This document shows, piece by piece, positions 34,433-51,779 of a stretch of 64,000 bases of DNA. Each line of letters begins with the position of its first letter. Position 1 is the first letter of the stretch. The DNA comes from Hymenobacter nivis (GTDB lineage: Bacteria > Bacteroidota > Bacteroidia > Cytophagales > Hymenobacteraceae): the NCBI RefSeq assembly GCF_003149515.1, contig NZ_CP029145.1, forward strand, positions 1,178,001-1,242,000. The letters are read 5' to 3'. A model generated the notes under the pieces. That model made no database searches. It was not told the origin of the DNA and was given only the letters and a program-made list of their open reading frames with translations. A program made the translations under genes and the position numbers.

Positions 34433-34474
34433 AAGAAGATGAATCGGGAGATGAAATGAAAAACGGCTCCGGTA

Positions 34475-35812
34475 CTAGCGGGCCAGCGGGGCCAGCGTGG
34501 GCTCCTGGCTCATGTCGAGCGGCGGCGCATCGGGCATCGAGCCGTGCTTTTCCTGCCAGCCCTTGAGCATCACGTCGCGCATCATTTCGGGCGTTTGGCC
34601 GGGTTCCAGCGCGCCGGGCATCATTTTCATGTCCGGCATCAGCAGCAGCATGGCTTCCTGGAGCGAGCCACCCAGCTCGCCGGGTTCGAGGCCCGGCCGC
34701 ATCTTCATCTGGAACTGCGCCATCATCTTCTCGTGCATCTCCGGGGCCAGGTTGGGCATCATCAGGGGCATCATCTCCGTCATCATCTCCATCATGATGC
34801 GCGACATTTCTCCCTCCGGGCTTTTCATCCAGTCGTAGTACACACGCGGGTCCAGGTCGGGGTGAGGAATGGGAAACTTGCGCACGTACTGCTCGTCGCC
34901 CGGCTGGTAGCCCATGGCCTTGATGACGCGGTACAGCTCGTCGCGCTTCTGCGCCTCGGTCCACTTATCGTAGCTCAAAATGTCGTAGGCAATGCCGTGG
35001 AGCATGTGCAGGTTGTCGAAGATGTTGGCCGATTCGGGCGACATGCGCGAGTAGCGCGGCATCACCTCCCGGCTCAGCACCATGCGCTGGGGCCGGTCCT
35101 TGAAGACCTGGTCGAACATCACCCGGTTCATCTCCTTGATGGCCGCCTCCTGTCCGCCGGGGGCGTTGCCGGCAATCATCTGGCACTCGTAGGCCGCCGG
35201 GTGCCACCAGTGGGCCACGTAGGCTTCGTTGTTCGACTTGGGGTAGTAATTGCGGTAGTACGTGAAGTAGGGCTTCATCATCACCGCCGCCCGCCGCATG
35301 GTGATGTCGAGCGGGGCCACCGAGCGGGCCACGTCCGGGTTTTTGGCCAGGTAGTACTTTACGGCCCGGTCGGTGTATGCTTTCTTTTTGTCCCACGGCA
35401 CCCGCGTGCTGGCCATAATGTCGTAGGTCTGCTCATGGTGCATGTGCGTCCAGTCGATGACCCGGTAGAGCTTCCAGGCCACGCGGGCTACGTAGGGGCC
35501 GTAGAGCTCCATGGTGGGGCCGACCGCCGACCGCTTGTTCTTGACAAAGTCAAAAACCTGCTGGTCAAATTCCGTATCCATCCGTGCCCGGTCGCTGGGC
35601 GGGGTGAGCAGCGTCACATCGTGCTCTTTGCCGTGGTGAAAATGGAAGCCCGCCGAGTAGGCTTCCGACTCGCCGTGGCGGCGGAAGAACGCGGCGTTGT
35701 AGGGGCCCCGCAGGTAGCTGACTTCCTTGCGGGGTTCAGTCGTGGTGTGGCTGGCCGAGCACGCGGCCAGTAGCAGCAGCAGTCCCGCCCCGGCAGTAAG
35801 TTTTAGTAGCAT
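34475..35812 (-). CDS. Met/His-rich lipoprotein of unknown function, likely metal-binding
   Basis: 445 residues. Lipobox LLLLLAAC (Cys18). No family recognised. The middle has many His and Tyr clusters (HFHHGKEHD, DWTHMHHEQTYD, VAHWWHPAAYECQM). The C-terminal third is very Met-rich: MSRIMMEMMTEMMPLMMP then PEMHEKMMAQFQMKMRPG and LMPDMKMMPG. Met and His clusters of this kind bind Cu(I)/Cu(II) or Ag(I) in periplasmic proteins. With the HMA chaperone and multicopper oxidase nearby, a role in copper binding or delivery at a membrane surface is a fair inference, not shown. First gene of the minus-strand run 35812-32668. Confidence 0.7.
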   Translation of the reverse strand: MLLKLTAGAGLLLLLAACSASHTTTEPRKEVSYLRGPYNAAFFRRHGESEAYSAGFHFHHGKEHDVTLLTPPSDRARMDTEFDQQVFDFVKNKRSAVGPTMELYGPYVARVAWKLYRVIDWTHMHHEQTYDIMASTRVPWDKKKAYTDRAVKYYLAKNPDVARSVAPLDITMRRAAVMMKPYFTYYRNYYPKSNNEAYVAHWWHPAAYECQMIAGNAPGGQEAAIKEMNRVMFDQVFKDRPQRMVLSREVMPRYSRMSPESANIFDNLHMLHGIAYDILSYDKWTEAQKRDELYRVIKAMGYQPGDEQYVRKFPIPHPDLDPRVYYDWMKSPEGEMSRIMMEMMTEMMPLMMPNLAPEMHEKMMAQFQMKMRPGLEPGELGGSLQEAMLLLMPDMKMMPGALEPGQTPEMMRDVMLKGWQEKHGSMPDAPPLDMSQEPTLAPLAR

Positions 35813-36013: not shown

Positions 36014-36223
36014 TTAGGCCGCCTGAATCTTGAAACCGGCTTTTTCAACGGCCTGCACGACTTGCTCCGCCGTGAGCCTATCGGAGCTGACGGTGAGAAG
36101 CTTATCGGGATTAGCGGTATCTACCTGCCAGTTGCCGGCTCCGGCCTGCTGGTTGAGGGCGGGCGTAACAGACTTGATACAGCCGCCGCAGTTGATGTTG
36201 GTTTTGAATTGAAGCGTTTTCAT
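36014..36223 (-). CDS. HMA-domain heavy-metal chaperone (CopZ-like)
   Basis: 69 residues from the ATG at 36223 (MKTLQFKTNINCGGCIKSVT). The metal site is CGGC, here NINCGGCIKSV, in place of the common MxCxxC (Met replaced by Ile/Asn). The beta-alpha-beta-beta-alpha-beta ferredoxin-like fold is evident and it ends KAGFKIQAA, typical of the family. No signal peptide, so cytosolic, carrying Cu(I) or a similar soft metal. It is divergent from the multicopper oxidase. Confidence 0.9.
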   Translation of the reverse strand: MKTLQFKTNINCGGCIKSVTPALNQQAGAGNWQVDTANPDKLLTVSSDRLTAEQVVQAVEKAGFKIQAA

Positions 36224-36610
36224 GACGAATGGAGTTAGCGGGACCAACGACGGTCCGGGTAAATAGAACGTACCAAGCGGCAGCCAGGTGCTACCAAAGG
36301 AGTACAGAATTGCGCGCACAGCGCGCACCGGTAGCCTACGACTGGCCGTGCACCGCCCCCGGCCCGTTGCGGCGGCTGGTATTCCCGGCCGCATGGGCGA
36401 TAGCGCAAAACCTGTTGCGCGCTGCCAAATGGCGACTGTCCAGGTACAAGAGTTGCCATGGGGCTCGGATGCCCCTGATTGAGCGGGCGTGTTTAGGATT
36501 TTGAAAAGACGAAAAAGAACCTTGTGCTGAGTATTTAAGTAAACGCTAAGTAAATGCAATGCTGGCCCACCTACTGCCCGGCGGGCAGCGGCCGCATCCA
36601 CAACCCCGAC
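36224..36610. other. Divergent control region between HMA and multicopper oxidase genes
   Basis: About 390 bases. It should carry promoters for both genes, but I see no exact TAnnTTTG element and no convincing operator palindrome. An open frame here on the minus strand is only an upstream extension of the HMA frame. Confidence 0.35.
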
Positions 36611-38989
36611 ATGAGAATTAACCCCTTACTCTTTTTTCTACTGCTGCTGCTGCTCACGGTCCGGCCGGCCCGGGCCCAGACGGATACGACCGTGTATCGC
36701 CTGACTCTGCGGCAGGAGCCGGTAGTGAAGGCCGGTAAAACCGTGCCGGGCATGACCGTCAACGGCGGGATTCCCGGGCCTACTATTCGGTTCAAAGAGG
36801 GCGACTACGCCATCATTTACGTCAAGAATGAAATGAACGTGCCGACGTCGGTGCACTGGCACGGGATACTGGCACCCAATTTTTACGACGGCGTGCCCTA
36901 CCTCAATACGCCGCCCATCGGGCCGGGGCAGGTGCAGAAATATGCGTTTCCGATTAAGCAGTCCGGCACCTACTGGTACCACTCGCACACCCTGCTGCAG
37001 GAGCAGAGCGGCGTGTACGGCTCCATCGTCATTGCGCCCCGGCAGGAGCGCCTCACCTACGACAAGGAGCTGGTGCTCCTGCTCTCGGACTGGACGAACC
37101 AGAAGCCGGCCAACGTCCTGCGCTTCCTCAAGCGGGGCACCGAGTGGTACAATATCCGCAAGGGGACGGCCACGCCGCTCAACCGCGTGATTGCCCGCGG
37201 GGCCTTCGGGGCGCAGCTCAACTTCTGGAAGCAGCGCATGGAGAGCTTCGGCATGGCCGACATCTACTACGACGCCTTCCTGGTAAACGGCCAGCCGGTG
37301 CAACAGTATCCGGACTTCAAGCCGGGTGAGAAGGTACGCCTGCGCATCATTAACGGGGCGACGTCGACGCAGTTCTGGCTGACGTTCGGGGGCGAAGACC
37401 CGCTGCTGGTGGCGGCCGACGGGCAGGAAGTGGTGCCGGTGCCGCACAACAAAACCTTCATTGCCGTGGCCGAAACCTACGATTACCTGGTCACGATTCC
37501 GCCCACCGGCAAGCTCGAGTTTCGGGCGATGGCGCAGGACGGCTCGGGCACCACTTCGGCTTACCTGGGCACGGGCCCGGTGGTGGCCGCCCCGGTGCTG
37601 CCCCGGCCCGACAAAATCGCGCTCATGCAGCAGATGGCTAAAATGGACATGCGCATGGGCGCGCCCGCGCTCAGGTTTCGCCCTAACCACGTCGACCCTG
37701 AGCAGATAAAAGCCAACTGGGGAATGCAGATGGGTAAGTCGGGTAAAGATGGAAAAATGGGCGATATGCAGATGGGCGGCGATAAGCCAATGGCCGGCAC
37801 GGCGATGGATGGCATGAAGAAGATGGATGGCATGAAAATGCCCGCCGACACGGCCCACGCCGGGCCCGATAAGCCGATGAGCGGTATGAAAATGGGCGCC
37901 GATAAGCCAATGGCCGGAATGAAGATGGGCGGCATGGATATGTTCGCCGAGTACAACTACGATTACTTGCGGGCTACGCAGAAAACGGCCTACGCCGACA
38001 GCCTGCCCGTGCGTAATGTCCTGCTCAACCTCACCGGCAACATGCAGCGCTACATCTGGAGCATGAACGGCGTACCCCTGTCGGAGGCGGATGAAATTCC
38101 CATCCGGGTCAACCAGATTACCCGCATTACCTACAACAACCTGACGATGATGCACCACCCCATGCACCTGCACGGGCACTTTTTTCGGGTCATCAACGCC
38201 AACGGCGAATACTCGCCCCTGAAGCACACGGTGGACGTGCCGCCCATGAAGCAGGTCGTTATCGAGGTGCTGGGCAACGAGTCGGGCGACTGGTTTCTGC
38301 ACTGCCACGTCCTCTACCACCTGGTGAGCGGGATGGGCCGCATCGTGAGCTACGACACGCCCCGCGACCCGCGTCTGAAAAACTACCCGGTGAGTAAGTT
38401 GGTGCACGAAACCAACCGGTACTACACCTGGGGCCGCCTCGGCGTGGCCTCGCACATGAGCTCGCTGAACCTGGTGTCGTCCAACATCCGCAATCAGTTC
38501 AACCTGAGCGTAGAGAACGGCTGGAACCGCAACATGGAATCGGAGGTCACCTACGAGCGCTACCTCTACGACTACTTCCGCGTGTTTGGGGGCGTGAACG
38601 TGGAGAACTTCCGGCAGCGGCTGCCCGCCCCGCTCACCGAGCCGGGGGCCGGGGGCCGGATGGTCACCAAAACCGATGCCAAGGCCGTGGTCGGGGTCCG
38701 CTTCCTGACGCCCTACCTGTTCAGCCTCGATGCCCGCATCGATAATCAGTTGCGGCCCCGCCTGAGCCTGGGCCGGAGCATTATGGTGATGCCGCGGCTC
38801 CTCGTGTCCGGCTATTATGAATACCAGGCCGACTTTGGGTGGGTGAATACGCTGGACAACAACCGCCGCTTTGCCAAAGAAATCGTGTGGCGTACCGGGG
38901 CCGAATACCTGCTCTCGCGCAACTTCTCATTGATGGGCAGCTACGACAACCGCTTTGGCGGCGGCGGCGGTCTGAACCTACTTTTTTAA
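36611..38989 (+). CDS. CopA-type multicopper oxidase with Met-rich insert and a C-terminal CopB-like barrel
   Basis: 792 residues from the ATG at 36611 (signal peptide MRINPLLFFLLLLLLTVRPA). Cupredoxin copper motifs are complete: VHWHG (about 81-85), WYHSH (122-126), HHPMHLHGHF (about 515-524) and HCHVLYHLVSGM (about 561-572). Before the last domain lies a Met-rich stretch (about 375-450) with repeats like DKPMAGMKMGG. After the oxidase ends (about 595) come about 195 more residues of amphipathic strands (NQFNLSVENGWNRNMESEVTYERYLYDYF, LFSLDARIDNQLRPRLSLG, LLVSGYYEYQADFGW) ending in GLNLLF with a terminal Phe. This resembles the outer-membrane copper protein CopB, so CopA and CopB functions seem fused. 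Expected role: periplasmic Cu(I) oxidation and copper tolerance. Confidence 0.85.
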   Translation: MRINPLLFFLLLLLLTVRPARAQTDTTVYRLTLRQEPVVKAGKTVPGMTVNGGIPGPTIRFKEGDYAIIYVKNEMNVPTSVHWHGILAPNFYDGVPYLNTPPIGPGQVQKYAFPIKQSGTYWYHSHTLLQEQSGVYGSIVIAPRQERLTYDKELVLLLSDWTNQKPANVLRFLKRGTEWYNIRKGTATPLNRVIARGAFGAQLNFWKQRMESFGMADIYYDAFLVNGQPVQQYPDFKPGEKVRLRIINGATSTQFWLTFGGEDPLLVAADGQEVVPVPHNKTFIAVAETYDYLVTIPPTGKLEFRAMAQDGSGTTSAYLGTGPVVAAPVLPRPDKIALMQQMAKMDMRMGAPALRFRPNHVDPEQIKANWGMQMGKSGKDGKMGDMQMGGDKPMAGTAMDGMKKMDGMKMPADTAHAGPDKPMSGMKMGADKPMAGMKMGGMDMFAEYNYDYLRATQKTAYADSLPVRNVLLNLTGNMQRYIWSMNGVPLSEADEIPIRVNQITRITYNNLTMMHHPMHLHGHFFRVINANGEYSPLKHTVDVPPMKQVVIEVLGNESGDWFLHCHVLYHLVSGMGRIVSYDTPRDPRLKNYPVSKLVHETNRYYTWGRLGVASHMSSLNLVSSNIRNQFNLSVENGWNRNMESEVTYERYLYDYFRVFGGVNVENFRQRLPAPLTEPGAGGRMVTKTDAKAVVGVRFLTPYLFSLDARIDNQLRPRLSLGRSIMVMPRLLVSGYYEYQADFGWVNTLDNNRRFAKEIVWRTGAEYLLSRNFSLMGSYDNRFGGGGGLNLLF

Positions 38990-38995
38990 TCCCTT

Positions 38996-39136
38996 AGGAC
39001 TTGCGCAGTTGAAATTTCAACCATAATTCCAGCGTCTGAGAGCTGTTATTCTTGATTCTATTTTGCTTGTAGGAAAAGCCGAAAGTGACTTTAGGCGCTC
39101 TGGAGCCGCTTTGGAAATTTCAACTGCGTAAGTCCT
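38996..39136. repeat. MITE family C (141 bp) between multicopper oxidase and nuo-like operon
   Basis: AGGACTTGCGCAGTTGAAAT at 38996 onward and its near-exact reverse complement ending at 39136 form inverted ends of about 23 bases with one mismatch. There is no coding capacity. It fills most of the 202-base gap before nuoA, so it may affect read-through from the oxidase gene or supply a promoter. Confidence 0.75.
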
Positions 39137-39191: not shown

Positions 39192-39554
39192 ATGGTAAAC
39201 GACTCCCGCTACCTGTTGCTGCTGGGAATGCTGGCTTGCACCGGAGTCTTTGCCGGGCTGCTCTACCTGGTTAAATTCTCGCTGGGCCAGTCGGTAGCCG
39301 AGCCGGGTAAGGACGTGCCCGCCGAAAGCGGCCGGCTGGCCGTGGAGCCCGCCTGGGTGCGGTACCACGTTCACTACTACGGCTTTGCCCTGCTCTTTCT
39401 GTGCTTCGATATGGAAATGGCCTTCATGTATCCGTGGGCGGTCGTGTACAAGGAGTTGGGCATCACGGCCCTGCTGGACATGGGCGTTTTCCTGCTGATT
39501 TTATTCCTCGGCTTGGTGTATACCTGGAACCAGGGCGGACTGAAACGGCAATAG
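39192..39554 (+). CDS. nuoA: NuoA-like subunit of a complex I-like operon
   Basis: 120 residues, three membrane helices. The NuoA hallmark FDMEMAFMYPWAVVYKELG (about 72-90) is clear, with the conserved Asp73 and Glu75. In the loop before TM2 the usual ECG of NuoA/ND3 reads ESG (45-47), so the conserved Cys is Ser. In complex I this subunit helps seal the quinone cavity next to NuoH and NuoD. The gene is 1 base from the next. Homology is secure; working as a standard complex I part is doubtful given the rest of the operon. Confidence 0.9.
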   Translation: MVNDSRYLLLLGMLACTGVFAGLLYLVKFSLGQSVAEPGKDVPAESGRLAVEPAWVRYHVHYYGFALLFLCFDMEMAFMYPWAVVYKELGITALLDMGVFLLILFLGLVYTWNQGGLKRQ

Positions 39555-39555
39555 C

Positions 39556-41643
39556 ATGGTAGATAAGCTTCTATCTGGTGCCCGGCTGGGCCTGTTGAGT
39601 CCGCTGAAGAAGTGGCTGCTGGGCGCTGGCGCGTCGGTGCTACGGGTGCTGGTAGTGCCAGGGCCGGACGTGGCGCGTGCCCTGGGCCTGGACCTGGGCG
39701 CGGCCAGCCTGGAAACGGCCGCCACCCCCAACGCCGCCGACGTGCTGCTGGTACTGGGGCCGCTCCCCACCCAACTGGCCGAGCAAGCCGCCGTACTCTT
39801 CGCCCAGATGCCCCGGCCCCGCCTGTTGGTATTCGCTGGCCTGGAGGTCGCCCCGCCGCTACCCGCCCCCGACGTGGTGATTCCACTTAATCAGGCCGGG
39901 CTGCAGCAGCTCGGCCCGGCCGTCCGCCAGCAGTTAGCGGCGCACGGCTGGCGCCCCGACGCCCGGCCCTACGAGCCGGCGTTCATCCGGCAGGCCGAAG
40001 AGCAGAAGCCCCCGCCGGACGCCCACGCCCATCATCACAGCCCCCCTTCGCCGGCCGCGGAATCGAAGCCAACCGAACCGGCCCCGCCCGAACACGGGGC
40101 GCACGCGCACCATACCATGCACGGCCAGCCCCCCATGCCGGCCCCGGTGGTCGCGCAGGAGCCCCCGGCAGCGGGAGCCGGGCAGCACGCGCACCATGCT
40201 TCCGACCAGCCCAGCCCCACGCCCGCCCCACCGGCCGCCGACCAGTCTGACCCGACCGGGCACCACCACATGGCCGGCATGGATGTGAGCGGTGAGGGAA
40301 AAAGTAAAAAAGCAGAAGAGACGATGGCGGGCGATATGAATATGGCTGACCATCAGCCAAAGATGGATATGGGTGCGCACGACATGGGTGCGCCCGATAT
40401 GGACATGGCCGACATGAGCGGTAAGATGGCTACGAAGCAGGGCGACATGGACATGCCCGGTGGCGATATGGCCGGCATGGATATGCCCGGTGGAGATATG
40501 GCCGGCATGGATATGCCCGGTGGAGATATGGCCGGCATGGATATGCCCGGTGGAGATATGGCCGGCATGGATATGCCCGGTGGAGATATGGCCGGGATGG
40601 ATATGGGCTTTATGTCGATGGTAGCCATGACCAAGGACCTGCCCCGCAGCGCCGACGGGCTGCCGATGGAGGCGACGGAAGTTGCGTTCGGCCCCTTCTT
40701 TCCCGGCCTGCCCGGTGGCTTGCAGCTACACCTGCACCTGGACGGCGACACGGTGACGAAGGCCCAGCTGGTGCCCGGCTTGGCTGCTCCTGACTACCCG
40801 TTGTTACCCATGCCGGCGGCGCAGTTCGCCGAGTGGCTGGCGGGCCACGACCGGCTGGCCCCGGCGGCTTACCTCGTACTGGCGCACTGCGCCCTGCGCC
40901 AGGCCCTGGGGCAGCCGGCTCCGGCAGCGGCGCAACGCTGGCAGGTCAGCCAACTGGAACAGACCCGCCTCGCCAGTCACCTCAACTGGCTGGTGGGCTT
41001 CGGCCTGACGATTGGCAACCACTGGCTACAACAGTCTGCGGAGCGGCTGCACGGACGCATCGTGCGGGGAACGGCCGCGCCGGATGAGCTACCCGACTTT
41101 GTGCGGCGGGTTAAGCAGCTGCCGCTGCTGCGGCAGAGCCTGACGCCGGTCGGGACGCTGCCCGAACTGCTCCTGCACCACTGTCGGGGGCCGGTAGCCC
41201 GGGCCGCCGGCTTGGCCCACGATGCCCGCCTGACCGACCCCGCCTACCAGCCGCTGGGCTTTGCGTCGCTGGTAATCAACGAGAACAATGCCTGGGGCCG
41301 GCTGCTCGTCCGCCTCGACGAGCTGACGCAGAGCCAGCAGCTGCTCCGCGCGGTTCAAGCCGACCAGGCCGGCTCGGCCGCCGCCCCGCTACTAACCGAC
41401 CTGGCCGGTACCGGGCAAGGTAGCGCCACCGTGGAAACGCCCCGCGGCACGGCCACCCTGACCATTCAGGTGCAGGAGGGCAAAGTGGTCAGCGCGGTGC
41501 TGCACCGGCCCTCCGTGCCGCACGCGGCCCTGGTCCGGGCCGGGGTGCGGGAACTGGAGCTGGGCGACGCGTTAAAGACCATTGCCTCCCTGGACATCTC
41601 GCCCTGGGAGCTGACCCACGACCCGGCCGCCGATGGAAAATAA
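39556..41643 (+). CDS. Fusion of degenerate NuoB-like and NuoD-like domains through a His/Met-rich linker
   Basis: 695 residues. Residues 1-135 follow NuoB in outline (ADVLLVLGPLPTQLAEQAAVLF, QMPRPRLLVFAGLEVAPPLP), but there is no cysteine, so the four N2 [4Fe-4S] ligands are missing. Residues about 155-240 are His-rich (DAHAHHH, HGAHAHHTMHG, GQHAHHAS, TGHHHMAG). Residues 257-356 are Met/Asp-rich, with five tandem MPGGDMAGMD units at 300-349. From about 375 to 690 the sequence follows NuoD (GPFFPGLPGGLQLHLHLDGD, TRLASHLNWL, RGPVARAAGLAHDARL, AWGRLLVRLDELTQS, TPRGTATLTIQV). The NuoD loop that carries the quinone-binding His reads GLPGG, and the quinone Tyr after DRL is absent. No NuoC part is seen. 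The protein could still bridge to the membrane arm but cannot do the usual electron transfer. The linker suggests metal binding. Confidence 0.8.
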   Translation: MVDKLLSGARLGLLSPLKKWLLGAGASVLRVLVVPGPDVARALGLDLGAASLETAATPNAADVLLVLGPLPTQLAEQAAVLFAQMPRPRLLVFAGLEVAPPLPAPDVVIPLNQAGLQQLGPAVRQQLAAHGWRPDARPYEPAFIRQAEEQKPPPDAHAHHHSPPSPAAESKPTEPAPPEHGAHAHHTMHGQPPMPAPVVAQEPPAAGAGQHAHHASDQPSPTPAPPAADQSDPTGHHHMAGMDVSGEGKSKKAEETMAGDMNMADHQPKMDMGAHDMGAPDMDMADMSGKMATKQGDMDMPGGDMAGMDMPGGDMAGMDMPGGDMAGMDMPGGDMAGMDMPGGDMAGMDMGFMSMVAMTKDLPRSADGLPMEATEVAFGPFFPGLPGGLQLHLHLDGDTVTKAQLVPGLAAPDYPLLPMPAAQFAEWLAGHDRLAPAAYLVLAHCALRQALGQPAPAAAQRWQVSQLEQTRLASHLNWLVGFGLTIGNHWLQQSAERLHGRIVRGTAAPDELPDFVRRVKQLPLLRQSLTPVGTLPELLLHHCRGPVARAAGLAHDARLTDPAYQPLGFASLVINENNAWGRLLVRLDELTQSQQLLRAVQADQAGSAAAPLLTDLAGTGQGSATVETPRGTATLTIQVQEGKVVSAVLHRPSVPHAALVRAGVRELELGDALKTIASLDISPWELTHDPAADGK
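40453..40602 (+). repeat. Five tandem 30-bp repeats encoding MPGGDMAGMD
   Basis: Five units of ATGCCCGGTGG(A/C)GATATGG... in frame; units 2-4 appear identical and the others differ by one or two bases. The near identity at DNA level points to recent expansion by slippage and probable length variation between strains. Confidence 0.9.
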
Positions 41644-42544
41644 CAACACCCTTCCAACTACGTTGCTGGTCGGGCTGCTCTTCGCGGGCGGCGTGTACGC
41701 GCTGGCCGTGCTCGAATACTGGTCGGTGGCCGGGCGACTGGCCTGGGCCCGGCCGGTGCGACTGGCGCTGAAGCTGCTGGCGCGCGAGGAAATCAAGCCC
41801 CGCCAGCGGGATGCCGTATTCTACGAAACTGCGCCCGTGCTGCTGCTGGCCGCTGGCACGCTGGCGGCCGCGGTGCTGCCCTGGTCGGCCAGCACGCCGC
41901 TGCTGAGCCTGGCCACCGGGGCCCTGTTCGTCAACGCCGCGTTTGCCTACGCGATGGTGGCGCTGGTGCTGGGCGGCTGGTCGAGCAACGGCGCGTACGC
42001 CATGATAGGGGGCTGGCGCTTCCTGGGCCAGCTACTGGCCTACTCCATGCCGATGGTGATGGCCCTGACGGCCACCGTGATGCGGGCCGAGTCGATGGTG
42101 CCGGTGCAGATTGTGCTTTCCCAGCGCGGCTTATGGAACATCGTCTACCAGCCGGTTGGCTTCGGCCTGTTCTACCTGGCGGCGCTGGCGCTGGCCTTCC
42201 TACCCCCCTTCGACTTGCCCGTGGCGGCCGGCGAGCTGGCCGGCGGGGCCTGGGCCGACTTCACGGGGGCCCGGCGGCTGGTGCTCCGGCTCGGGCGCCT
42301 GAGCCTGGTGATGAGCTTGGCCGTTACCATCACCGTCTTTTACCTGGGCGGCTGGCAGGGCCCCGGGCTGCCGGGCGTGGTCTGGACGCTTCTGAAAACG
42401 CTGCTGGTCGCGGCCTCCTTTTTCGGGGTCGGCCACTACGTTTCCCGGGTTCGGTACGACCTGCTGCTGGAGTGGAGCTGGAAGTACGCCACGCCGGCCG
42501 CGCTTTTGAATATTCTGTGGGTTGGAATTCTACTACTGCTATGA
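41633..42544 (+). CDS. nuoH: NuoH-like subunit with eroded E-channel residues
   Basis: 303 residues, about eight membrane helices, starting 11 bases inside the previous gene. NuoH landmarks: AYAMIGGWRFLGQLLAYSMP, LPPFDLPVAAGELAGGAW..FTG, YLGGWQGPGLP and the C-terminal RYDLLLEWSWKYATPAALLN. Against my memory of E. coli NuoH, the conserved Glu after 'SY' is Ser138, and in the 'FD.PEAE.EL' motif two of three Glu are lost (Val197, Ala199) while Asp194 and Glu201 remain. The following IEYSG Glu is Asp209. In complex I these acids relay the coupling signal from the quinone site. Their loss fits a complex that no longer reduces quinone. Confidence 0.88.
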   Translation: MENNNTLPTTLLVGLLFAGGVYALAVLEYWSVAGRLAWARPVRLALKLLAREEIKPRQRDAVFYETAPVLLLAAGTLAAAVLPWSASTPLLSLATGALFVNAAFAYAMVALVLGGWSSNGAYAMIGGWRFLGQLLAYSMPMVMALTATVMRAESMVPVQIVLSQRGLWNIVYQPVGFGLFYLAALALAFLPPFDLPVAAGELAGGAWADFTGARRLVLRLGRLSLVMSLAVTITVFYLGGWQGPGLPGVVWTLLKTLLVAASFFGVGHYVSRVRYDLLLEWSWKYATPAALLNILWVGILLLL

Positions 42545-43056
42545 ACGCGCTGCAACTATTTTTTCTGGCCGGGTTTGGGCTGGCTGCCGTCTGGTTTGGC
42601 TGGCGGGTGTTCCGCACCCACTCGATGGTGCGCTCGGCCATGTCGCTGCTGGCCTGCATGGTGGCGCTGGGAGCCATGTTTCTGGTGTTGCAGGCCGAGT
42701 TTCTGGGCGTGCTGCAAATCATGATGATGGCGGCCGAGATGAGCATCATGGCCTTCTTCATGATGATGTTTATGATGGACCCCGGCGGGCTGGGCAACAT
42801 GAACATGACGCACCAGCAGAAGCCCGCCACGGCCCTTAGCGCGGCGGTGGCGGCCCTGCTGCTGGCCCTGCTGCTAAGCACCAACTGGCCCGCGCCGCTC
42901 GCGCAGGTGCCCACCGCCACCCAGCAGAACCACGATTTGGGCATCGAGCTGATGACCCGCTCCATGATGATTTTTGAAACCGCCGGCACCACCATTCTGG
43001 TGGCCATGATTGCCGCCGCGGCGACCGCCCTCGTTTATCCCCCGCAACCCGACTGA
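42541..43056 (+). CDS. nuoJ: NuoJ-like subunit, Met-rich
   Basis: 171 residues from the ATG at 42541 (ATGA overlap with nuoH). The NuoJ pattern THSMVRSAMSLLACMVALGAMF then QAEFLGVLQIMMMAAEMSIM is recognisable, where standard NuoJ has AEFLAVVQVLVYVGAIMVL. Here the helix is strongly Met-enriched (AFFMMMFMMDPGGLGNMNM). The C-terminal helices (FETAGTTILVAMIAAAATALV) match the NuoJ end. In complex I, NuoJ TM3 carries the pi-bulge in the coupling pathway; here that helix has a Glu (AAEMSIM) where small residues are usual. Confidence 0.85.
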   Translation: MNALQLFFLAGFGLAAVWFGWRVFRTHSMVRSAMSLLACMVALGAMFLVLQAEFLGVLQIMMMAAEMSIMAFFMMMFMMDPGGLGNMNMTHQQKPATALSAAVAALLLALLLSTNWPAPLAQVPTATQQNHDLGIELMTRSMMIFETAGTTILVAMIAAAATALVYPPQPD

Positions 43057-43058
43057 TT

Positions 43059-43373
43059 ATGGCCCTCCCGATTTGCCTGAGTATCGCCGCCGTATTATTT
43101 GCCTTGGGTCTGTATGGTGTTATCAGCCAGACGAATCTGGTCATGATTATGATGGGCGTGGAGCTGATGCTGGCCGCGGCCATGCTCAACCTGGTGGCGT
43201 TCTGGCGCCTGCTCCACCCCCACACCTACACCCTGCAAATGTTCGTGCTGGTGGTGATGACCGTGATGGCGCTGGAAGCGGCGGTGGGCTTTGCCCTGGC
43301 GACCCAGCGCTTCCGCAGCCGCGGCTCGGTAGAGGTAGAAGAGGCCGCTGACTTAAAGGAGGAAGGCGTATGA
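43059..43373 (+). CDS. nuoK: NuoK-like subunit with both conserved glutamates
   Basis: 104 residues, three membrane helices. Both functional Glu of NuoK are kept: Glu35 in MMGVELMLAAAMLNL and Glu73 in MTVMALEAAVGFALA. Start two bases after nuoJ; its TGA overlaps the ATG of nuoL. The conserved acids mean the ion path through this subunit could still work. Confidence 0.92.
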   Translation: MALPICLSIAAVLFALGLYGVISQTNLVMIMMGVELMLAAAMLNLVAFWRLLHPHTYTLQMFVLVVMTVMALEAAVGFALATQRFRSRGSVEVEEAADLKEEGV

Positions 43374-45253
43374 TAGCGCTGATTCTCCTCGCGCCCCTGC
43401 TGGCGGGCCTGCTGATGGTAGTGGTGCGCCGGTTTCCGGCGGCGCTGGGGCTGGGCGGCGGGCTGGCTTCGCTGGCCGGGGCGGGTGGCTTGCTCTACCA
43501 GGTGCGGCAGCACACGGCGGCCGGGCTCACGCTGCCGGGTCTGCCGGGAATGCCGTTTCGACTGGAAGCCACGCCTTTTACGGCGGTGCTGGCCCTGGTG
43601 GTGGCCGTCGTGGCGCTGCTGATTCTAACCTACGCCTGCGGCTACATGGCCCGCGAGCGGGGCCAGGTGTGGTTCTGGAGCAGCATGATGCTCTTCATTG
43701 CCGCAATGCAGCTACTGGTACTGGCCGCCGACTGGCTCCTGTTCATCACCGGCTGGGAGCTGATGGGACTGGCGTCCTACCTGCTGATTGCGACCTGGCA
43801 CTGGGAAGAAAAAGCCCGACAGGGCGCCTTCAAGGCCTTTCTGCTCACCCGCGGCACCGACCTGGGCCTCTACCTGGGCGTGGTGCTCATTATTCTGCAA
43901 ACCGGCACCAACCTCATGGAGCCGCAGCCGGGCCGGCTGCTCTCGCTGGTGGGGGCGCTGGCGCTGCTGCTGGCCGTGATGGGCAAGTCGGCGCAGGTGC
44001 CGTTCCAGAGCTGGCTGTCGGGGGCCATGGCGGGCCCAACGCCCGTGTCGGCGCTGCTGCATTCGGCCACGATGGTGGCTGCCGGGGTAGTACTCCTGCT
44101 CCGGGCCTACCCGCTGCTGCCCCCGGCCAGCCTGCCGTTCGTGGGGGCCGTGGGGGGGCTGACCATTGTGCTGACCGGCCTGACGGCCCTGGTCAGCAAC
44201 GACATCAAGCAGCTGCTGGCCGCCTCCACGTCGAGCCAGCTGGGGTTTATGCTGCTGGCCCTGGCCGCTGGCTCGCCGGCGGCGGCCGTGGCGCACCTGC
44301 TGGCGCACGCCTTCATGAAAAGCAGCCTGTTTCTGAGCGCGGGCATCTTTCAGCACCAAAACGACGACACGGCCTTCGTCCGCATCAGCGGCAGCGGCCG
44401 GTGGGCACCCTGGGCGTTCGGCGGCTGGGCGCTGGCCGGCCTGGCGCTGGCTGGGGTACCGCCGCTGGTCGGCTATTGGTCGAAGGACGCGGTGCTGACG
44501 GCCGGCTACCAGTCCGGCCATCCGGGGCCGTACTTCGGCGTGGCGGTGCTGGGGGCGGCGCTCACAGCCCTCTACATGGGCCGGTCCATCCGGCTGCTCT
44601 GGACCGGCCCCGAGCGCCCGCCGACCGCCGCCGTCACCGGCATCTGGTCTATGCGGGCGGGGCTGGCGCTGCTGGTGGGCGGCGTGGTAGTGGGCGGGGG
44701 GCTGCTGGCCCCGGCGCTCCGCTTCGTGGGGCTGACGCTGCCGGAAAATGCGACGGCCCAATTCAGCGGGCTGGCGGCGGCGGTGGGGGGCCTGGGAGTC
44801 GGCTTCTTCCTGTTCCGCGCCGCTGATTTCCGGCAGCCCGTGCTTCGGTTCGCGCGGCAGAACTACCCCCTGGCCGGCGGCTTCGAGGCCGTGGTGGGGC
44901 AGCCGGTGCTGGCCCTGGCGGCCGGGTGCCGGGACTTCGACCTGCGCCTGCACCAGCTCGTGCTGGGGGTAGGCCAGGCCGCGCTGGGCCTGGCCAGCGC
45001 CGGTACCGCCGCCGATGCCGGCCTGAGCGGTGCCGCCCAGGCGGCGGGCCGCCGCACCCTGGCACTGGCGGACGGCATTCGCCAGTTGGCGGAAACCGGC
45101 ATCTCGGGGGCCGTTGACGAGGTAGGCACCGCGGTGAAAAAAGCCGGGCAGCTTAGCCGGCGAACCCAGTCCGGGCTGATTCACCAGGAGCTGCTGTGGA
45201 CGGTAGCGGGACTGCTGGTCCTGGGGGCCGTCTTGTTTTTTACGCTTCTCTAA
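43370..45253 (+). CDS. nuoL: NuoL-like antiporter-type subunit
   Basis: 627 residues. The key residues of an antiporter-like subunit are all present: Glu130 (FITGWELMGLASYLL), Lys206 (VMGKSAQVPFQSWL), His231 (ALLHSATMVAAG), Lys280 (SNDIKQLLAASTSSQLG), His309 and His313 (AHLLAHAFMKSSLF) and Lys372 (GYWSKDAVL). A roughly 130-residue C-terminal extension (RQLAETGISGAVDEVGTAVKK, then a final helix) fits the lateral helix HL. Translocation of H+ or Na+ is therefore plausible. Confidence 0.92.
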   Translation: MIALILLAPLLAGLLMVVVRRFPAALGLGGGLASLAGAGGLLYQVRQHTAAGLTLPGLPGMPFRLEATPFTAVLALVVAVVALLILTYACGYMARERGQVWFWSSMMLFIAAMQLLVLAADWLLFITGWELMGLASYLLIATWHWEEKARQGAFKAFLLTRGTDLGLYLGVVLIILQTGTNLMEPQPGRLLSLVGALALLLAVMGKSAQVPFQSWLSGAMAGPTPVSALLHSATMVAAGVVLLLRAYPLLPPASLPFVGAVGGLTIVLTGLTALVSNDIKQLLAASTSSQLGFMLLALAAGSPAAAVAHLLAHAFMKSSLFLSAGIFQHQNDDTAFVRISGSGRWAPWAFGGWALAGLALAGVPPLVGYWSKDAVLTAGYQSGHPGPYFGVAVLGAALTALYMGRSIRLLWTGPERPPTAAVTGIWSMRAGLALLVGGVVVGGGLLAPALRFVGLTLPENATAQFSGLAAAVGGLGVGFFLFRAADFRQPVLRFARQNYPLAGGFEAVVGQPVLALAAGCRDFDLRLHQLVLGVGQAALGLASAGTAADAGLSGAAQAAGRRTLALADGIRQLAETGISGAVDEVGTAVKKAGQLSRRTQSGLIHQELLWTVAGLLVLGAVLFFTLL

Positions 45254-45262
45254 CTTGCACTT

Positions 45263-46735
45263 ATGCCGCATATTCCGTTACTCTCCGTCAGTATTTTCCT
45301 GCCCCTGCTGGGGGCGCTGGTGCTGCTGGTGCTCCGCACCCAGGGCCGGGTACTGGCTTTTGCGCTGGGTATCGGCACGACGGCCCTCACGGTGGTCGCC
45401 ACCGCCCTCATCTGGATGCGCGGCGTGCCCGGCGGCTTCGCGCAGGTGGAGGAGCTACGCTGGATTCCGTCGCTGGGGGCCGCCTACCGGGTGGGCGTGG
45501 ACGGCATCAGCTTGCCGCTGGTGCTGCTCACGGCATTGCTATTCCTGGTGGCCATGATTTACTCGGCGAAAGTCACCGACCAGCCCGGCAGCTTCGTGGC
45601 CCTGCTGCTGCTGCTGGAAACGGCTTGTCTGGGGTCATTCCTGGCGCTGGACCTGCTGCTGTTCTACGTCTTTTTCGAGTTGACGCTGGTGGGCATGTAC
45701 TTCATCATTGCCGGCTGGGGCCACGAGGGCAGTAAAAAAGCTGCGCTCACCTTCTTCATCTACACTTTGGTGGGCAGCCTATTCCTGCTGCTGGCTTTTT
45801 TGGCCCTTTATCTAAATGCCGCCCCGCACACCTTCGATATGCGCGTCCTGCTGGCCCACCCGCCCCTGACCGGCACCGCGGCGGCGCTCACCTTCTGGGG
45901 CCTTTTTCTGGCCTTCGCCATCAAAACGCCCCTGTTTCCCTTTCATACCTGGCTGCCGGCGGCCCACACCGAAGCCCCGACGGCGGGCAGCGTCATTCTG
46001 GCCGGGGTGATGCTGAAGCTGGGCGGCTACGGCTTCATCCGCTTCAGCCTGCAGATGACCCCCGACGCGTTCCGGCAGTTTGCCCCCTACGTGATGGGAC
46101 TGGCCCTATTTTCGGCCCTTTACGGGGCGCTGGCCGCGCTGGGCCAAACCGATATCAAGCGGCTGGTGGCCTACACCAGCGTCAACCACATGGGCTACAT
46201 GGTGTTCGGGGTCGGGGCGGCGGCGCTCACCACCACGGGCAGCGCCTTCGGCCTCGACGGGGCCGTGCTGCAGATGGTCAGCCACGGCATCGTCACCAGC
46301 TGCCTGTTCCTGCTGGTCGGGGCCCTGCAGGACCGGACCAAAACCCGCGAAATGGACCAGCTCGGCGGGCTGGCGCAGGCCTACCCGCTGCTGAGCGGCC
46401 TGTTTATGCTGGCGGCCTTTGCCTCGCTGGGCCTGCCGGCGCTGGCCCACTTCCCCGCCGAGTTCCAGATTTTCCTGGGGGGCTACGAGGTAGCGCCAGT
46501 CATGACGGCGCTGCTGCTGCTGGGGCTGCTGATTACCACGGCCCTTTACCTGCGCGCTATCCAGCGGGTGTTTCTGGGCGAGGCCCCCACCATGGCCCTA
46601 CCCCCGGCCGACTTGTCCGGCCGCGAGCTGTGGGCCATTGTTCCGCTGATAATCCTGATTGTGGGGCTGGGCCTCTACCCCGAAGCGTTGCTGCGGGTCA
46701 TTCACGCCACGCAACAGGTTTTGGGCCATGAGTAG
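45263..46735 (+). CDS. nuoM: NuoM-like antiporter-type subunit
   Basis: 490 residues, about 14 helices. Conserved residues present: Glu139 (LFYVFFELTLVGMY), Lys221 (LAFAIKTPLFPFHTWLP), Lys252 (AGVMLKLGGYGFIR), the QTDIKRLVAYTSVNHMGYM stretch and the TM12 Glu in HFPAEFQIFLGGY. Its last eight bases overlap the nuoN start. Likely a working ion channel unit. Confidence 0.92.
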   Translation: MPHIPLLSVSIFLPLLGALVLLVLRTQGRVLAFALGIGTTALTVVATALIWMRGVPGGFAQVEELRWIPSLGAAYRVGVDGISLPLVLLTALLFLVAMIYSAKVTDQPGSFVALLLLLETACLGSFLALDLLLFYVFFELTLVGMYFIIAGWGHEGSKKAALTFFIYTLVGSLFLLLAFLALYLNAAPHTFDMRVLLAHPPLTGTAAALTFWGLFLAFAIKTPLFPFHTWLPAAHTEAPTAGSVILAGVMLKLGGYGFIRFSLQMTPDAFRQFAPYVMGLALFSALYGALAALGQTDIKRLVAYTSVNHMGYMVFGVGAAALTTTGSAFGLDGAVLQMVSHGIVTSCLFLLVGALQDRTKTREMDQLGGLAQAYPLLSGLFMLAAFASLGLPALAHFPAEFQIFLGGYEVAPVMTALLLLGLLITTALYLRAIQRVFLGEAPTMALPPADLSGRELWAIVPLIILIVGLGLYPEALLRVIHATQQVLGHE

Positions 46736-48104
46736 CGGCGGGAGCATGGCGCAGGACCTGCGGCTGGTGCTGCCGCAGCTTATCGTGCTGCTGACGGCCA
46801 TGCTGGCCCTGGTCGCCGAGATGCTGCGCTGGCGCCGGGCGGGCCTGACTACCGTGGCCGTGGGCCTGGGCGCGGCCACGGTGGTCAGCGCCGGCCGGCT
46901 GGCGGTCCACGCCACGGCGTTTTCGGGCACGTTCCGGGTCGACCTGCTCAATCACTGGAGCGTGCTGATTCTGTGTCCGACGGCGGTGCTGTGCTGCCTG
47001 CTGGCCCGGCAGGAGCTGCGCGGCACCCCGCGGGAGGGCACCGTTTACAGCCTGCTCTGCTTCGGCACGCTGGGGGCGCTGGTGCTGGCCGGCAGCGGCG
47101 ACATGATGCTGCTCGTGCTGGGGCTGCTCATGACCAGCCTCAGCGGCTTTGCCCTGGCGGCCTACGCCAAAACCGAGGCCGGCACCGAGGGCGCGCTGAA
47201 GTACTTTATCTACGGCACCGTCACGACGGCCATCCTGATTTTTGGGCTGAGCTACTGGGTGGGCATCACGGGCAGCACCCTGCTCAGTGCGCTGGGCCAG
47301 CCCAACCTGCCCGCGCCGCTGCTGGCGTTCGGCTTCGTGGCCCTGCTCACCGGCCTGGGGTACGCGGCGTCACTATTTCCCTTCCACTTCTGGACGCCCG
47401 ACACGCTGGAGGGTGCCCCGGTATCGGTGGCCGCCTACCTGTCGGTAGTGCCCAAGATAGGCGCCTTTTTCGGGCTGGCGCAGGTGTGCCGGTCGCTGCC
47501 CAGCACCGCAGTCGACTGGCCGCTGGTGCTGGCCCTGCTGGCCGTCGCGTCGATGACCTTTGGCAACGTGCTGGCCCTGCGGCAAACCAACGTGGTGCGC
47601 CTGCTGGCCTACTCCACGGTGACGCAGGCCGGGTATTTTCTGCTGCCCCTGGTGGGAGTGCGCGGGGCGATGGCGTTGCCGGCCCTGGTGGTGTTTGCCG
47701 CCGCCTACGCCGCCATGAACACGGGCGCGTTTGCCATCGTCCTGCACACCGGCCGCACGCTCGCCGACTTCAAGCGCCTCGGCACCACGCGCATCTTCAC
47801 GGGCTTGGCCATGACGGTTTTCCTGTTCTCGCTGGTTGGCATTCCGCCCCTGGCCGGCTTCACGGGCAAGCTGCTGCTGTTTGAGTCGGCCATGGCGGCC
47901 GGCTATACCTGGCTGGCCGTGGTCGCCGTGCTCAACAGTGCCCTTGCGCTGGCCGTGTACAGCCGGGTTATCGTGGCCATGTACTTTGCCGCGCCCGGCG
48001 GCCCGGCCGCGCCGCCCGCGCCCGCCTGGGAAATCCGCACGGTCGTCGGGGCCTGCCTGCTGGCTACGCTGGGGCTAACGCTGGCGGCGCAGTTCTTCTT
48101 TTGA
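46728..48104 (+). CDS. nuoN: NuoN-like subunit lacking two conserved charged residues
   Basis: 458 residues from the ATG at 46728, which overlaps the nuoM stop. NuoN motifs: LKYFIYGTVTTAI, SLFPFHFWTPDTLEGAPVSVAAYLSVVPKIG, ALRQTNVVRLLAYSTVTQAGYFLLP, GIPPLAGFTGKLLLFESAM. Two usual charges are missing: the TM5 Glu (family GLELLSL; here GLLMTSL, residues 132-138) and the TM7 Lys (family GLGFKLSLVPFH; here GLGYAASLFPFH, Ala213). Lys243 (VVPKIG) is kept. Last gene of the operon. Loss of the Glu-Lys pair suggests this channel unit does not pump in the usual way. Confidence 0.9.
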   Translation: MSSGGSMAQDLRLVLPQLIVLLTAMLALVAEMLRWRRAGLTTVAVGLGAATVVSAGRLAVHATAFSGTFRVDLLNHWSVLILCPTAVLCCLLARQELRGTPREGTVYSLLCFGTLGALVLAGSGDMMLLVLGLLMTSLSGFALAAYAKTEAGTEGALKYFIYGTVTTAILIFGLSYWVGITGSTLLSALGQPNLPAPLLAFGFVALLTGLGYAASLFPFHFWTPDTLEGAPVSVAAYLSVVPKIGAFFGLAQVCRSLPSTAVDWPLVLALLAVASMTFGNVLALRQTNVVRLLAYSTVTQAGYFLLPLVGVRGAMALPALVVFAAAYAAMNTGAFAIVLHTGRTLADFKRLGTTRIFTGLAMTVFLFSLVGIPPLAGFTGKLLLFESAMAAGYTWLAVVAVLNSALALAVYSRVIVAMYFAAPGGPAAPPAPAWEIRTVVGACLLATLGLTLAAQFFF

Positions 48105-50690: not shown

Positions 50691-51779
50691 GTCGCTGGTA
50701 AATAATCATCATTTTTTGCTTGTCGCGTTACCTTTGCTCGATGCTACACATATCGACTCTTCCCGACGAAGAAAAGCAAACGCTGGAAGCAGGCCATAAA
50801 AACGGCAACAAGGCCTATTTCCGCAACCGCTGCCAGTGCATTTTGCTCAGTGCCAGCGGTTTTGAGGCAAAAGAATTGGCGTTGATTTACACCACGCGAA
50901 CCCGCACCGTTTACGACTGGCTCCACCGCTACAAGCGGGACGGTTTTCTAGGGTTAAAAATCAAAGCGGATCGCGGGTTAAAAGCCCCGCTACAAGACCT
51001 GACGCTTGAGCAAGTCGCTGACATCAGAGAACAACTAAAAGAAAACCCGCAAAGTCTGCGGGAGGTTGCCGCGCTATTGAGCACGAAATTTGGTTTTACG
51101 ATGAGTAAATCAGCGCGCAAACAATATGTTAAAAAAAACTAAACTACACCTGGCACCGCTTACGGAACTGGCTCAACCCCAAGCAAGACGAGGTCGAATA
51201 TGCCCGTCTTGCCGCTGAACTGGAGGAGCGCTTGCAATGGGAAGACCAGCACTGTTTACAGGTCTATTTTGGGGACGAGAGTGGTTTTTGCCTCACGCCC
51301 TGCGTGCCCTACGGCTGGCAGCCCTGCGGGCAGTACCCGGCGACGGTGCCGCAGAAAAGCCAACGGCGAAACGTTTTTGGCCTTTTTTCGCGCAACAATG
51401 CGTTTGAAGGGCATGAAGCTTTCGGCCCCATGACGGAGGAACTACTGGTAGCCTGTCAGGGTGGCGATTTCGCCCCGAAAATAACGCAGAAAACGGTTGT
51501 GGTACTCGACAATGCGCGGTTTCATCACGCGGCGGTTGTGACGGCTAAAAGCGAAGAATGGCAAGCGCAAGCCCGCTACATCTGGTTTTTGCCCGCCTGC
51601 AGTCCACACTTGAATGCCATCGAAACGCTGTGGCGAAAAATCAAGTACGAATGGCTCAAACCGCCTCATTTCGCGAGTTGGCAAGTGCTCCATGAAGCGC
51701 TGGATGAAATATTGAATAATATAGGTACAAAATATACTCTGCAATTCACATGATTTTATGTCGATTATTTATGGCAGCC
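50691..51779 (+). mobile_element. IS630-family element 3 (about 1089 bp)
   Basis: Imperfect ends GTCGCTGGTAAATAATC and, inverted, GGCTGCCATAAATAATC are bounded by TA at 50689-50690 and 51780-51781. It contains a full two-frame transposase unrelated at close range to the other two copies. Boundaries are my inference from the short inverted repeat. Confidence 0.65.
50741..51753 (+). CDS. IS630-family transposase with A8 frameshift site
   Basis: First frame (50741-51142): helix-turn-helix domain (EEKQTLEAGHKNGNKAYFRNRCQCILLSASG, TRTRTVYDWLHRYKRDGF). An A8 run at 51131-51138 allows a -1 shift into the second frame, which continues LNYTWHRLRNWLNPKQDEVEYA and holds the DDE set: Asp in VYFGDESGF, Asp in VVVLDNARFHHA, Glu in NAIETLWRKIKYEW. 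Both parts look intact. Confidence 0.85.

Follow-up and report, generated by a model that had tools for sequence, protein, structure and literature searches.

The question raised by this locus is what a membrane machine built like respiratory complex I could be driving, or be driven by, in a gene set that holds no electron-carrying subunits. Within the window (the whole stretch of 64,000 nucleotides of Hymenobacter nivis DNA that was analysed), eight genes on the same strand occupy positions 39192-48104 in the order nuoA-[B/D fusion]-H-J-K-L-M-N. These genes and their nearest metal-related neighbours are:

36014-36601, - strand: small HMA-domain protein (PF00403, E 5.2e-5; 24.0 bits, just below the cut-off of 24.8)
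36554-38989, + strand: multicopper oxidase with a Met-rich stretch (Pfam Cu-oxidase domains), 202 bases upstream of nuoA
39192-39554, + strand: nuoA, 120 aa (Pfam PF00507, E 1.9e-27)
39556-41643, + strand: NuoB-NuoD fusion, 695 aa
41633-42544, + strand: nuoH, 303 aa (Pfam PF00146, E 4.4e-52)
42541-43056, + strand: nuoJ, 171 aa (Pfam PF00499, E 1.7e-20)
43059-43373, + strand: nuoK, 104 aa (Pfam PF00420, E 5.1e-19)
43370-45253, + strand: nuoL, 627 aa (Pfam PF00361, E 1.9e-55)
45263-46735, + strand: nuoM, 490 aa (Pfam PF00361, E 7.2e-70)
46746-48104, + strand: nuoN, 452 aa, ATG start (Pfam PF00361, E 3.6e-47)

The sequence-only reading of an eight-gene operon without nuoC, E, F, G or I was borne out: none of these five is among the eight genes, and all seven membrane subunits (A, H, J, K, L, M and N) score above the Pfam cut-off. 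The gaps of 1-9 bases or overlaps that it described apply to the first six junctions and fail at the last, nuoM/nuoN (distances from nuoA to nuoN: +1, -11, -4, +2, -4, +9 and +10 bases). An alternative start for nuoN is a TTG at 46659. A scan of the region between the multicopper oxidase and nuoA found no promoter or terminator, and the oxidase is one of the two genes with Cu-oxidase_2 matches in the 5.03 Mb genome. Elsewhere in this genome a canonical Nuo system is present with all 14 subunits, each with a Pfam match (A-J at ~4.237-4.246 Mb, M-N at ~4.288 Mb, K-L at ~4.317 Mb). Because this separate set is complete, supply of the missing subunits in trans was rejected, and the refutation that the sequence-only reading had named, completion of the operon in trans, falls away.

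The fused protein consists of a NuoB-like domain (residues ~28-150), a linker (151-352), a motif (353-371, MSM..MT....S.DGL.M) and a NuoD domain (~374-688), where the NuoD fold was compared over residues 343-688 and the NuoB assignment comes from sequence profiles only. The linker is rich in histidine and methionine (17 His, 31 Met and 0 Cys in 202 residues), and the whole protein contains two cysteines. In an alignment with the NuoB of E. coli and that of the own genome, none of the 50 family proteins counted (of 51 rows) keeps any of the four N2 cluster cysteines: C63 and C64 are deleted in 50/50, C158 is deleted in 49 and Leu in one, and C129 is replaced or gapped in 50/50. The quinone motif of NuoD, GPxHPxxHG, is not intact either, with the second His kept in 0/50 and the first in 3/50 proteins, and reads GPFFPGLPGG in the window. 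The lack of iron-sulphur cysteines and quinone-site residues noted by the sequence-only reading is confirmed. A nickel-bearing hydrogenase relative was ruled out because CxxC pairs are absent from the D part of the 50 family proteins; a defence system was also considered and dropped, with no PADLOC match to the fusion. Across the family the linker is either His/Met-rich or equipped with heavy-metal-binding (HMBD) domains: among the matches listed, 57 of 120 fusion homologs have CPMHP-like HMBD cores, and the linkers of the 59 measurable HMBD-less homologs among them average 21% His+Met. A sister family has the fusion without the metal linker, and on two alphaproteobacterial plasmids the annotated fusions are cut down to 302 and 289 aa and match no Pfam family.

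Searching with the fusion recovered ten further loci in Bacteroidota, Actinomycetota and Pseudomonadota, and 10/10 also carry the other seven genes in identical order; chance is thereby excluded as the source of this order. The cassette occurs on 12 of 72,556 plasmids, in 4/395 Bacteroidota and in 1/100 genomes of its own family (both counts include the Hymenobacter nivis genome), and in 7/92 of another family; it is a real, mobile family, present in at least three phyla. Its current annotations are NADH-quinone oxidoreductase subunits and 'heavy metal-binding domain-containing protein'. Shirsath et al. 2025 (PMC12361115) report, in the part of the article available to us, plasmid-encoded Nuo subunits from 57 species. 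Most of these sets are partial, and some may be the cassette described here; the terms copper and heavy metal do not occur in the main text of the article, and the available part mentions no B/D metal-linker fusion. A search of an Alteromonas copper paper (PMC8478169) for NADH, quinone, Nuo and complex I returned nothing, and no description of the cassette was found in the literature consulted, which included the accessible parts of PMC12361115, PMC11522691, PMC9977279, PMC7558416 and PMC8478169 and covered few subscription papers.

The proton-channel residues of NuoL and NuoM are retained almost without exception (E. coli numbering; L047, whose genes are broken into pieces, was for that reason left out of all residue counts). 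NuoL keeps E144, D178, K229, H254, K305, K342 and K399 in 17/17 rows and D400 in 16/17, with Glu in one, and NuoM keeps E144, K234, H241, K265, H322, H348 and E407 in 17/17; NuoM W203, which is not a pump residue and varies, stands outside these counts. The three sister rows all have Asp in place of NuoM E144 and Glu in place of NuoL D400. NuoN has lost the TM5 glutamate, so proton coupling may be reduced, and its K217 is Ala in the window, with K247 and K395 kept. Of the E-channel, NuoA of the window retains D73 and E75 and NuoK both channel glutamates. NuoH is altered: E157 is kept in 0/17 (S in the window, S or A in 17/17), E241 in 0/17 (R in 17/17), E216 in 0/17 (Asp in 5) and E218 in 2/17, while D213 is kept in 16/17 and E220 and E228 are acidic in 17/17.

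The most distinctive change is found in NuoJ, whose TM3 in the window carries M62, M63, M67, M70, M74, M78 and M79 together with E66, followed by the loop residues M87, M89 and H91. M62, M63, M67, M70, M74 and E66 are present in 20/20 family rows and in 0/31 canonical NuoJ proteins, although many family rows are near-identical plasmids, so that the counts overstate independence. The canonical proteins carry invariant V, Y, I, L and (at 66) A at these sites and V, T or I at 74. Per TM3, the family has 8-10 methionines against 1-3 in canonical NuoJ; position 76 is Met in the canonical set as well (31/31), and position 78 in 5/31. When ladder carriers were used as seeds of a profile search, the best 120 of 2394 matches, the ones examined, all had six ladder methionines. 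At the sequence level, aligned methionines run along a membrane helix, as in a methionine ladder. M63, M67, M70, M74 and M78 share one helix face, with 57 of 20,349 five-position sets equally tight for this choice of positions, which was made after the fact; the clustering is 0.88 for the five and 0.45 with 62 and 79 included. The predicted structure of NuoJ (pLDDT 65) is too poor to place the ladder. Methionine gains are not spread evenly over the complex: family-invariant methionines absent from the own-genome and E. coli subunits, the two canonical references used for each, occupy 15/395 positions in A, J and K against 3/1872 in H, L, M and N (Fisher p 1.6e-9). Methionines specific to the family are M74 and M76 in NuoA, flanking E75, and M29 and M70 in NuoK.

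The genetic surroundings point to copper. At 10/12 plasmid loci and 8/9 genome-assembly loci, genes for resistance to copper or heavy metals are found no more than ~14 kb away, against 1/9 comparison loci (four canonical nuo and five group-4-like plasmid loci), or 3/9 on the loosest count, which includes the chromate gene of plasmid locus L042 and the unspecified cation P-type ATPase of L045. Copper annotations are absent from all five plasmid comparison loci, and one canonical nuo locus (G059) has a copper-type P-ATPase ~16.5 kb away. A Halomonas plasmid locus (H56) was moved out of the controls, leaving these five, as it proved to hold a sister cassette with genes for CopC, CopD, CopB and a multicopper oxidase next to it. 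In three sister loci, cueR lies at most three genes from nuoA or adjoins nuoN. No copper genes were seen near L012, L017 and G497, nor in the stretches read farther along the two plasmids of L012 and L017. When four additional loci were located through NuoJ, the rule of copper neighbours held for G493, G491 and G502 and not for G497, where the only match is a distant RND protein of about 24% identity; the ATPases of G502 and L031 share 99.8% identity, and the cases are therefore not independent.

Loss of the electron-carrying parts together with a conserved row of methionines suggests copper efflux powered by the proton gradient as a likely function. We give roughly even odds (about 0.5), judging from the sequences, that this eight-subunit complex I relative without Fe-S ligands or an intact quinone motif pumps Cu(I), and possibly Ag(I), out of the cell at the expense of the proton gradient. 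The picture of a complex I-type machine that would move copper instead of electrons, its E-channel turned into a methionine conduit, and that travels between phyla on plasmids, is put forward tentatively. The earlier proposal of an ion-translocating machine driven by something other than quinone reduction is supported by the lost Fe-S and quinone residues and the kept NuoL/NuoM proton-channel residues, and its suggestion of metal binding gains strength from the HMBD linkers of relatives, the copper neighbourhoods and the NuoJ ladder. In the proposed mechanism, the His/Met-rich or HMBD linker of the cytosolic B/D fusion would collect Cu(I), which would go by way of the conserved MSM motif to the loop between TM3 and TM4 of NuoJ (M87, M89, H91); the NuoD-fold domain would serve as loading cap and gate. 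The ion would then climb the TM3 ladder (M79/78 to M74, M70, M67 and M63/62), flanked by NuoA M74/M76 and NuoK M70, at the E-channel position of complex I. The energy would come from proton entry through NuoL and NuoM via the charged central axis, NuoN being partly degraded, so that a copper ion would take the part that quinone chemistry has in the usual coupling of complex I. Along this proposed path the middle section alone is conserved everywhere. That the metal would be exported is an assumption taken from the surrounding resistance genes.

We infer that the complex probably transports the metal and does not use it as a gate alone. A copper-gated cation/proton antiporter or proton valve, in which the complex opens or closes on metal binding by the linker and the NuoJ methionines while H+, Na+ or K+ is moved to adjust pH or membrane potential under copper stress, is unlikely. 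In its favour, the pump residues of NuoL and NuoM are kept, both subunits match models of Na+/H+ antiporters as well, two sister cassettes adjoin genes with ion-channel annotations, and the sister family sits in copper islands despite having no linker. A gate, however, requires one metal site, not seven family-invariant methionines over ~18 residues of a single NuoJ membrane helix, and the loop ligands and the methionines in NuoA and NuoK also exceed that need. We regard it as distinctly improbable that the cassette exports or imports another metal (Ag, Zn, Hg) or takes Cu(I) up. HMBD is a general heavy-metal domain, the sequence gives no direction, and a CDF transporter lies near one cassette (L010) and ars genes near two others (L038, L050); yet the metal neighbours are mainly copper-resistance genes, with cueR annotated beside the three sister cassettes, and a methionine ladder is a fitting path for Cu(I) or Ag(I) but not for Zn(II).

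The frequent multicopper oxidases, cupredoxins and c-type cytochromes near the cassette, and the metal-rich linker in its soluble arm, would also agree with a pump in which proton pumping is driven by Cu(I)/Cu(II) or by an electron carried on copper, and no longer by Fe-S and quinone chemistry. All-thioether ladders favour Cu(I) and have transport-like rather than redox-cycling chemistry. With no cofactor domain found by Pfam in the eight proteins and a ladder that fits transport better than redox cycling (compare the available part of PMC7558416), such a redox pump is very unlikely. The full canonical set in the genome invites the thought of a copper-proof spare membrane arm, which would join the canonical peripheral arm or replace complex I when copper destroys Fe-S clusters. 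Copper is known to damage Fe-S proteins, but the cassette's own B/D cap would fill the docking site, NuoH has neither E157 nor E241, the D domain has no quinone motif, and NuoJ is rebuilt at canonical invariant positions, which leaves this idea hardly any probability. The sporadic distribution given above might finally suggest a functionless degenerate paralogue or hitch-hiker, an explanation that we consider barely credible given that three phyla share the gene order and the key residues, the frames in the window are open and the copper-island setting recurs.

How quinone reduction drives pumping via NuoH, A, J and K to N, M and L is a long-standing open question. The cassette family, in which the membrane arm is kept, the driver replaced and the changes concentrated at the coupling helices, amounts to a natural experiment on it. 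If passage of a metal at the old E-channel position is coupled to the protons of NuoL and NuoM, coupling needs no redox chemistry, and nature would have provided a test of whether the membrane arm can be coupled by conformation or charge in the absence of such chemistry. As far as we know, no other member of the complex I superfamily has a transition-metal ion as its substrate, so that a proton-driven copper exporter of this kind would be the first; it would also be a new, plasmid-spread class of copper-resistance system.

Compared with known systems, the cassette shares with respiratory complex I (NDH-1, 14 subunits, and its 11-subunit relative) all seven membrane subunits, a NuoB-like domain, the NuoD fold, the NuoL/M pump residues and the NuoK and NuoA channel carboxylates. 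It differs in fusing B and D around a metal-rich linker, in an operon without C, E, F, G and I, in lacking the N2 cysteines, an intact quinone motif and the NuoH glutamates, and in a NuoJ TM3 rebuilt with methionine. Ehr complexes are cofactor-free kin of the energy-converting [NiFe] hydrogenases. From both groups the cassette is set apart by NuoA, J, K and N of the complex I type and by a fused small subunit without Fe-S ligands; group 4 [NiFe] hydrogenases have two CxxC nickel-ligand pairs, whereas the window fusion has C445 and C543 only. Mrp antiporters perform redox-free ion exchange with NuoL/M-type subunits, which is the logic proposed here, but the cassette does not have the MrpA-G set: MrpE/F/G are missing, and NuoH and a NuoB/D cap are present. 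CusA and the P1B-type copper ATPases are unrelated to the cassette, in whose eight proteins Pfam finds neither an RND nor a P-ATPase domain, and P-type copper pumps are driven by ATP, unlike the proposed exporter. The principle that the cassette would share is that of the RND system CusA/CusCBA, in which, according to the available part of PMC7558416, a proton-driven antiporter exports Cu(I) along a methionine ladder.

The operon stands as the sequence-only reading had described it, with eight genes on one strand (window 39192-48104; nuoA-[B/D fusion]-H-J-K-L-M-N) at intergenic distances of +1, -11, -4, +2, -4, +9 and +10 bases. Pfam matches were obtained for NuoA, H, J, K, L, M and N, and a Complex1_49kDa stretch was recognized within the 695-aa fusion. 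Among the NCBIfam rows shown, only NuoM (subfamily) and NuoK (one equivalog) scored above the cut-off, and the cassette subunits are therefore divergent relatives. The host replicon is a single contig of 5,027,597 bases (window at 1,178,001-1,242,000) and carries one copy of the fusion. The search for a separate nuo set, which the same reading had proposed, recovered all 14 canonical subunits elsewhere in the genome, each with a Pfam match (NuoI being assigned from 4Fe-4S domains and position): the ten subunits A-J lie together, K and L form a second group, and M and N a third. These three places (L018, L019 and L020; 4.237-4.319 Mb) do not constitute one operon. Identities between the window subunits and their canonical counterparts were 21-39%. 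The genome also encodes a separate NuoL-like protein (Proton_antipo_M; ~2,170,500-2,172,100, L021:5527-7056) adjoining a 749-aa frame (L021:3247-5496), which we presume may be a DabB/DabA-type pair.

The protein search yielded 211 fusion homologs, and the 120 listed include names from Hymenobacter, Pontibacter, Catalinimonas, Roseihalotalea, Thiogranum, Rubrobacteraceae, Chloroflexota and others. A CPMHP-like HMBD core was present in 57 of these 120 and the motif MSM..MT....S.DGL.M in 108; the one homolog tested by Pfam (P0105) contained three HMBD stretches, and Hymenobacter psoromatis has two fusion copies in one genome. The gene order of the full cassette was the same in 10/10 loci checked first, and the full cassette was annotated on 12/12 plasmids retrieved with the D part of homolog P0034 as query (with the fusion region in two pieces in L039 and nuoH in two in L016). 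We consider it near certain that the family is real. Its distribution is sporadic: the cassette occurred in 4 of 395 Bacteroidota, H. nivis included (three candidates scored per genome), in H. nivis as the one carrier among 100 members of its own family, and in 7 of 92 members of the family of genome G286. The window NuoM is 54.8-63.0% identical to the cassette NuoM of Paracoccus and Rubrobacter plasmids, compared to 38.8% for the canonical NuoM encoded in the same genome, a pattern that fits horizontal spread. Alphaproteobacterial cassettes often have a DUF6629 gene upstream (L012, L035, L036, L037, L038, L039), and three contain an extra piece annotated as proton-conducting transporter subunit (L012:10337-10852, L037:1152-1955, L039:6165-7388).

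Copper or heavy-metal genes were found within 12-14 kb of 10 of the 12 linker-type plasmid cassettes (those of L012 and L017 had none) and of 8 of 9 genome-assembly cassettes (draft contigs included; the total takes in 3 of 4 loci added later), counts that mix annotation and tblastn and in which many loci are related. Representative neighbours were:

Window: multicopper oxidase 202 bases upstream; HMA protein
L010: HMA, CDF, cupredoxin
L030: two multicopper oxidases, CopB
L031 and L032: HMA P-ATPase, cupredoxin

One of the two Cu-oxidase_2 genes in the 5.03 Mb H. nivis genome adjoins the cassette. Among the comparison loci, copper genes occurred at none of five group-4-like plasmid loci (a chromate gene in one, an unspecified cation ATPase in one), and a copper-type ATPase at one of four canonical nuo loci, ~16.5 kb away. 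On the minus strand at window 33644-35812, the multicopper oxidase is adjoined by a 445-aa lipoprotein-like protein (Met-rich near its C-terminus, no Pfam match) and, beside that, one of 262 aa whose match to PF13557 is marginal. Between the multicopper oxidase and nuoA, a 139-base element (window 38997-39135), whose terminal inverted repeats are 22 bases long and differ at a single position, looks like a MITE; a 161-base stretch around it had no other match in the H. nivis genome at E 0.001. Two transposase loci of the DDE_3 type, both of them split in two, flank the copper region and cassette (window 31169-32331 and 50720-51753).

Membrane-arm residues were compared by aligning 17 rows of the linker type (the window plus 16 loci) and three rows (two for NuoA) of a sister family, which has the same gene order and a fusion without the metal linker, with the canonical subunits of the H. 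nivis genome and those of E. coli (E. coli numbering for H, L and M). The tested pump residues of NuoL and NuoM were kept apart from substitutions at two sites: position D400 of NuoL is Glu throughout the sister rows and in a single row of the linker type, and position E144 of NuoM is Asp in the sister family. Both NuoK glutamates were kept (Asp once in 17), as were NuoA D79 and E81 (17/17; Glu at 79 in 2/2 sister rows). The TM5 glutamate of NuoN is missing from every row, and K217 from five. In NuoH, E157 and E241 are absent throughout, with acidic residues retained at E220 and E228. The TM3 region of NuoJ is transformed (VLQIMMMAAEMSIMAFFMMMFMMD versus ALEIIVYAGAIMVLFVFVVMMLNL in E. coli): M62, M63, M67, M70, M74, M79 and E66 were present in 20/20 family members and 0/31 canonical NuoJ (30 Bacteroidota and E. 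coli), M78 in 20/20 versus 5/31 and M61 in 17/20 versus 0/31, while M76 is common to both sets. NuoK M70 and M29 were likewise found in 20/20 versus 0/29. Family-invariant methionines absent from both canonical references numbered 2 in A, 0 in H, 11 in J, 2 in K, 0 in L, 1 in M and 2 in N. A profile search, with a NuoJ profile built from ladder carriers, recovered six ladder methionines in all of the best 120 of 2394 matches.

The sister family includes nuoA-[438 aa fusion]-H-J-K-L-M-N on a plasmid of Halomonas sp. KO116. Its fusion gave 719 protein matches, many of the best 120 bearing names from Halomonadaceae, and matched 8 plasmid records, 2 over most of its length. Copper islands surround four of the five sister loci fetched, with cueR close by in three of those four; at L047 the adjoining genes are unnamed, and at the Martelella locus only nuoA and a short piece are left, followed by an ISL3 transposase. 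The Roseivivax and Acuticoccus fusions (L048, L049; 302 and 289 aa as annotated, the second frame being open further upstream) have lost much of the NuoD part and gave no Pfam match. Because these shortened fusions coexist with an intact NuoJ ladder, erosion seems to reach the soluble arm first, and the two loci seem to form a natural erosion series. Ion-channel annotations adjoin two sister cassettes (L049:10747-11151, L050:10174-10590), and a frame (L031:2798-3832) beside the L031 cassette has an Ion_trans_2 match just below the cut-off; such neighbours perhaps serve charge compensation.

NDUFA9 lies on the matrix side of complex I. According to passages in PMC11522691 and PMC9977279, ND6/NuoJ TMH3 changes conformation at the ladder position. 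The TMH3-4 loop of ND6 sits below NDUFA9 and next to the ND3 TMH1-2 loop. We take the side of the TMH3-4 loop to be the matrix (cytosolic) side, and the NuoJ ladder would therefore start at the cytosolic end and run across most of the membrane, with M87, M89 and H91 in the loop that follows. Parts of PMC7558416 describe stepwise movement of Cu(I) along a methionine ladder in CusA and present RND proteins as proton-driven antiporters. Because the CusA ladder and RND antiport serve as analogy, we infer the metal and the direction, with Cu(I) export that would be powered by H+ entry via NuoL and NuoM, and give the cassette about an even chance of being such a H+-driven Cu(I) exporter. Its composition places the cassette in the complex I superfamily as a variant, and by its proposed substrate it would be new there.
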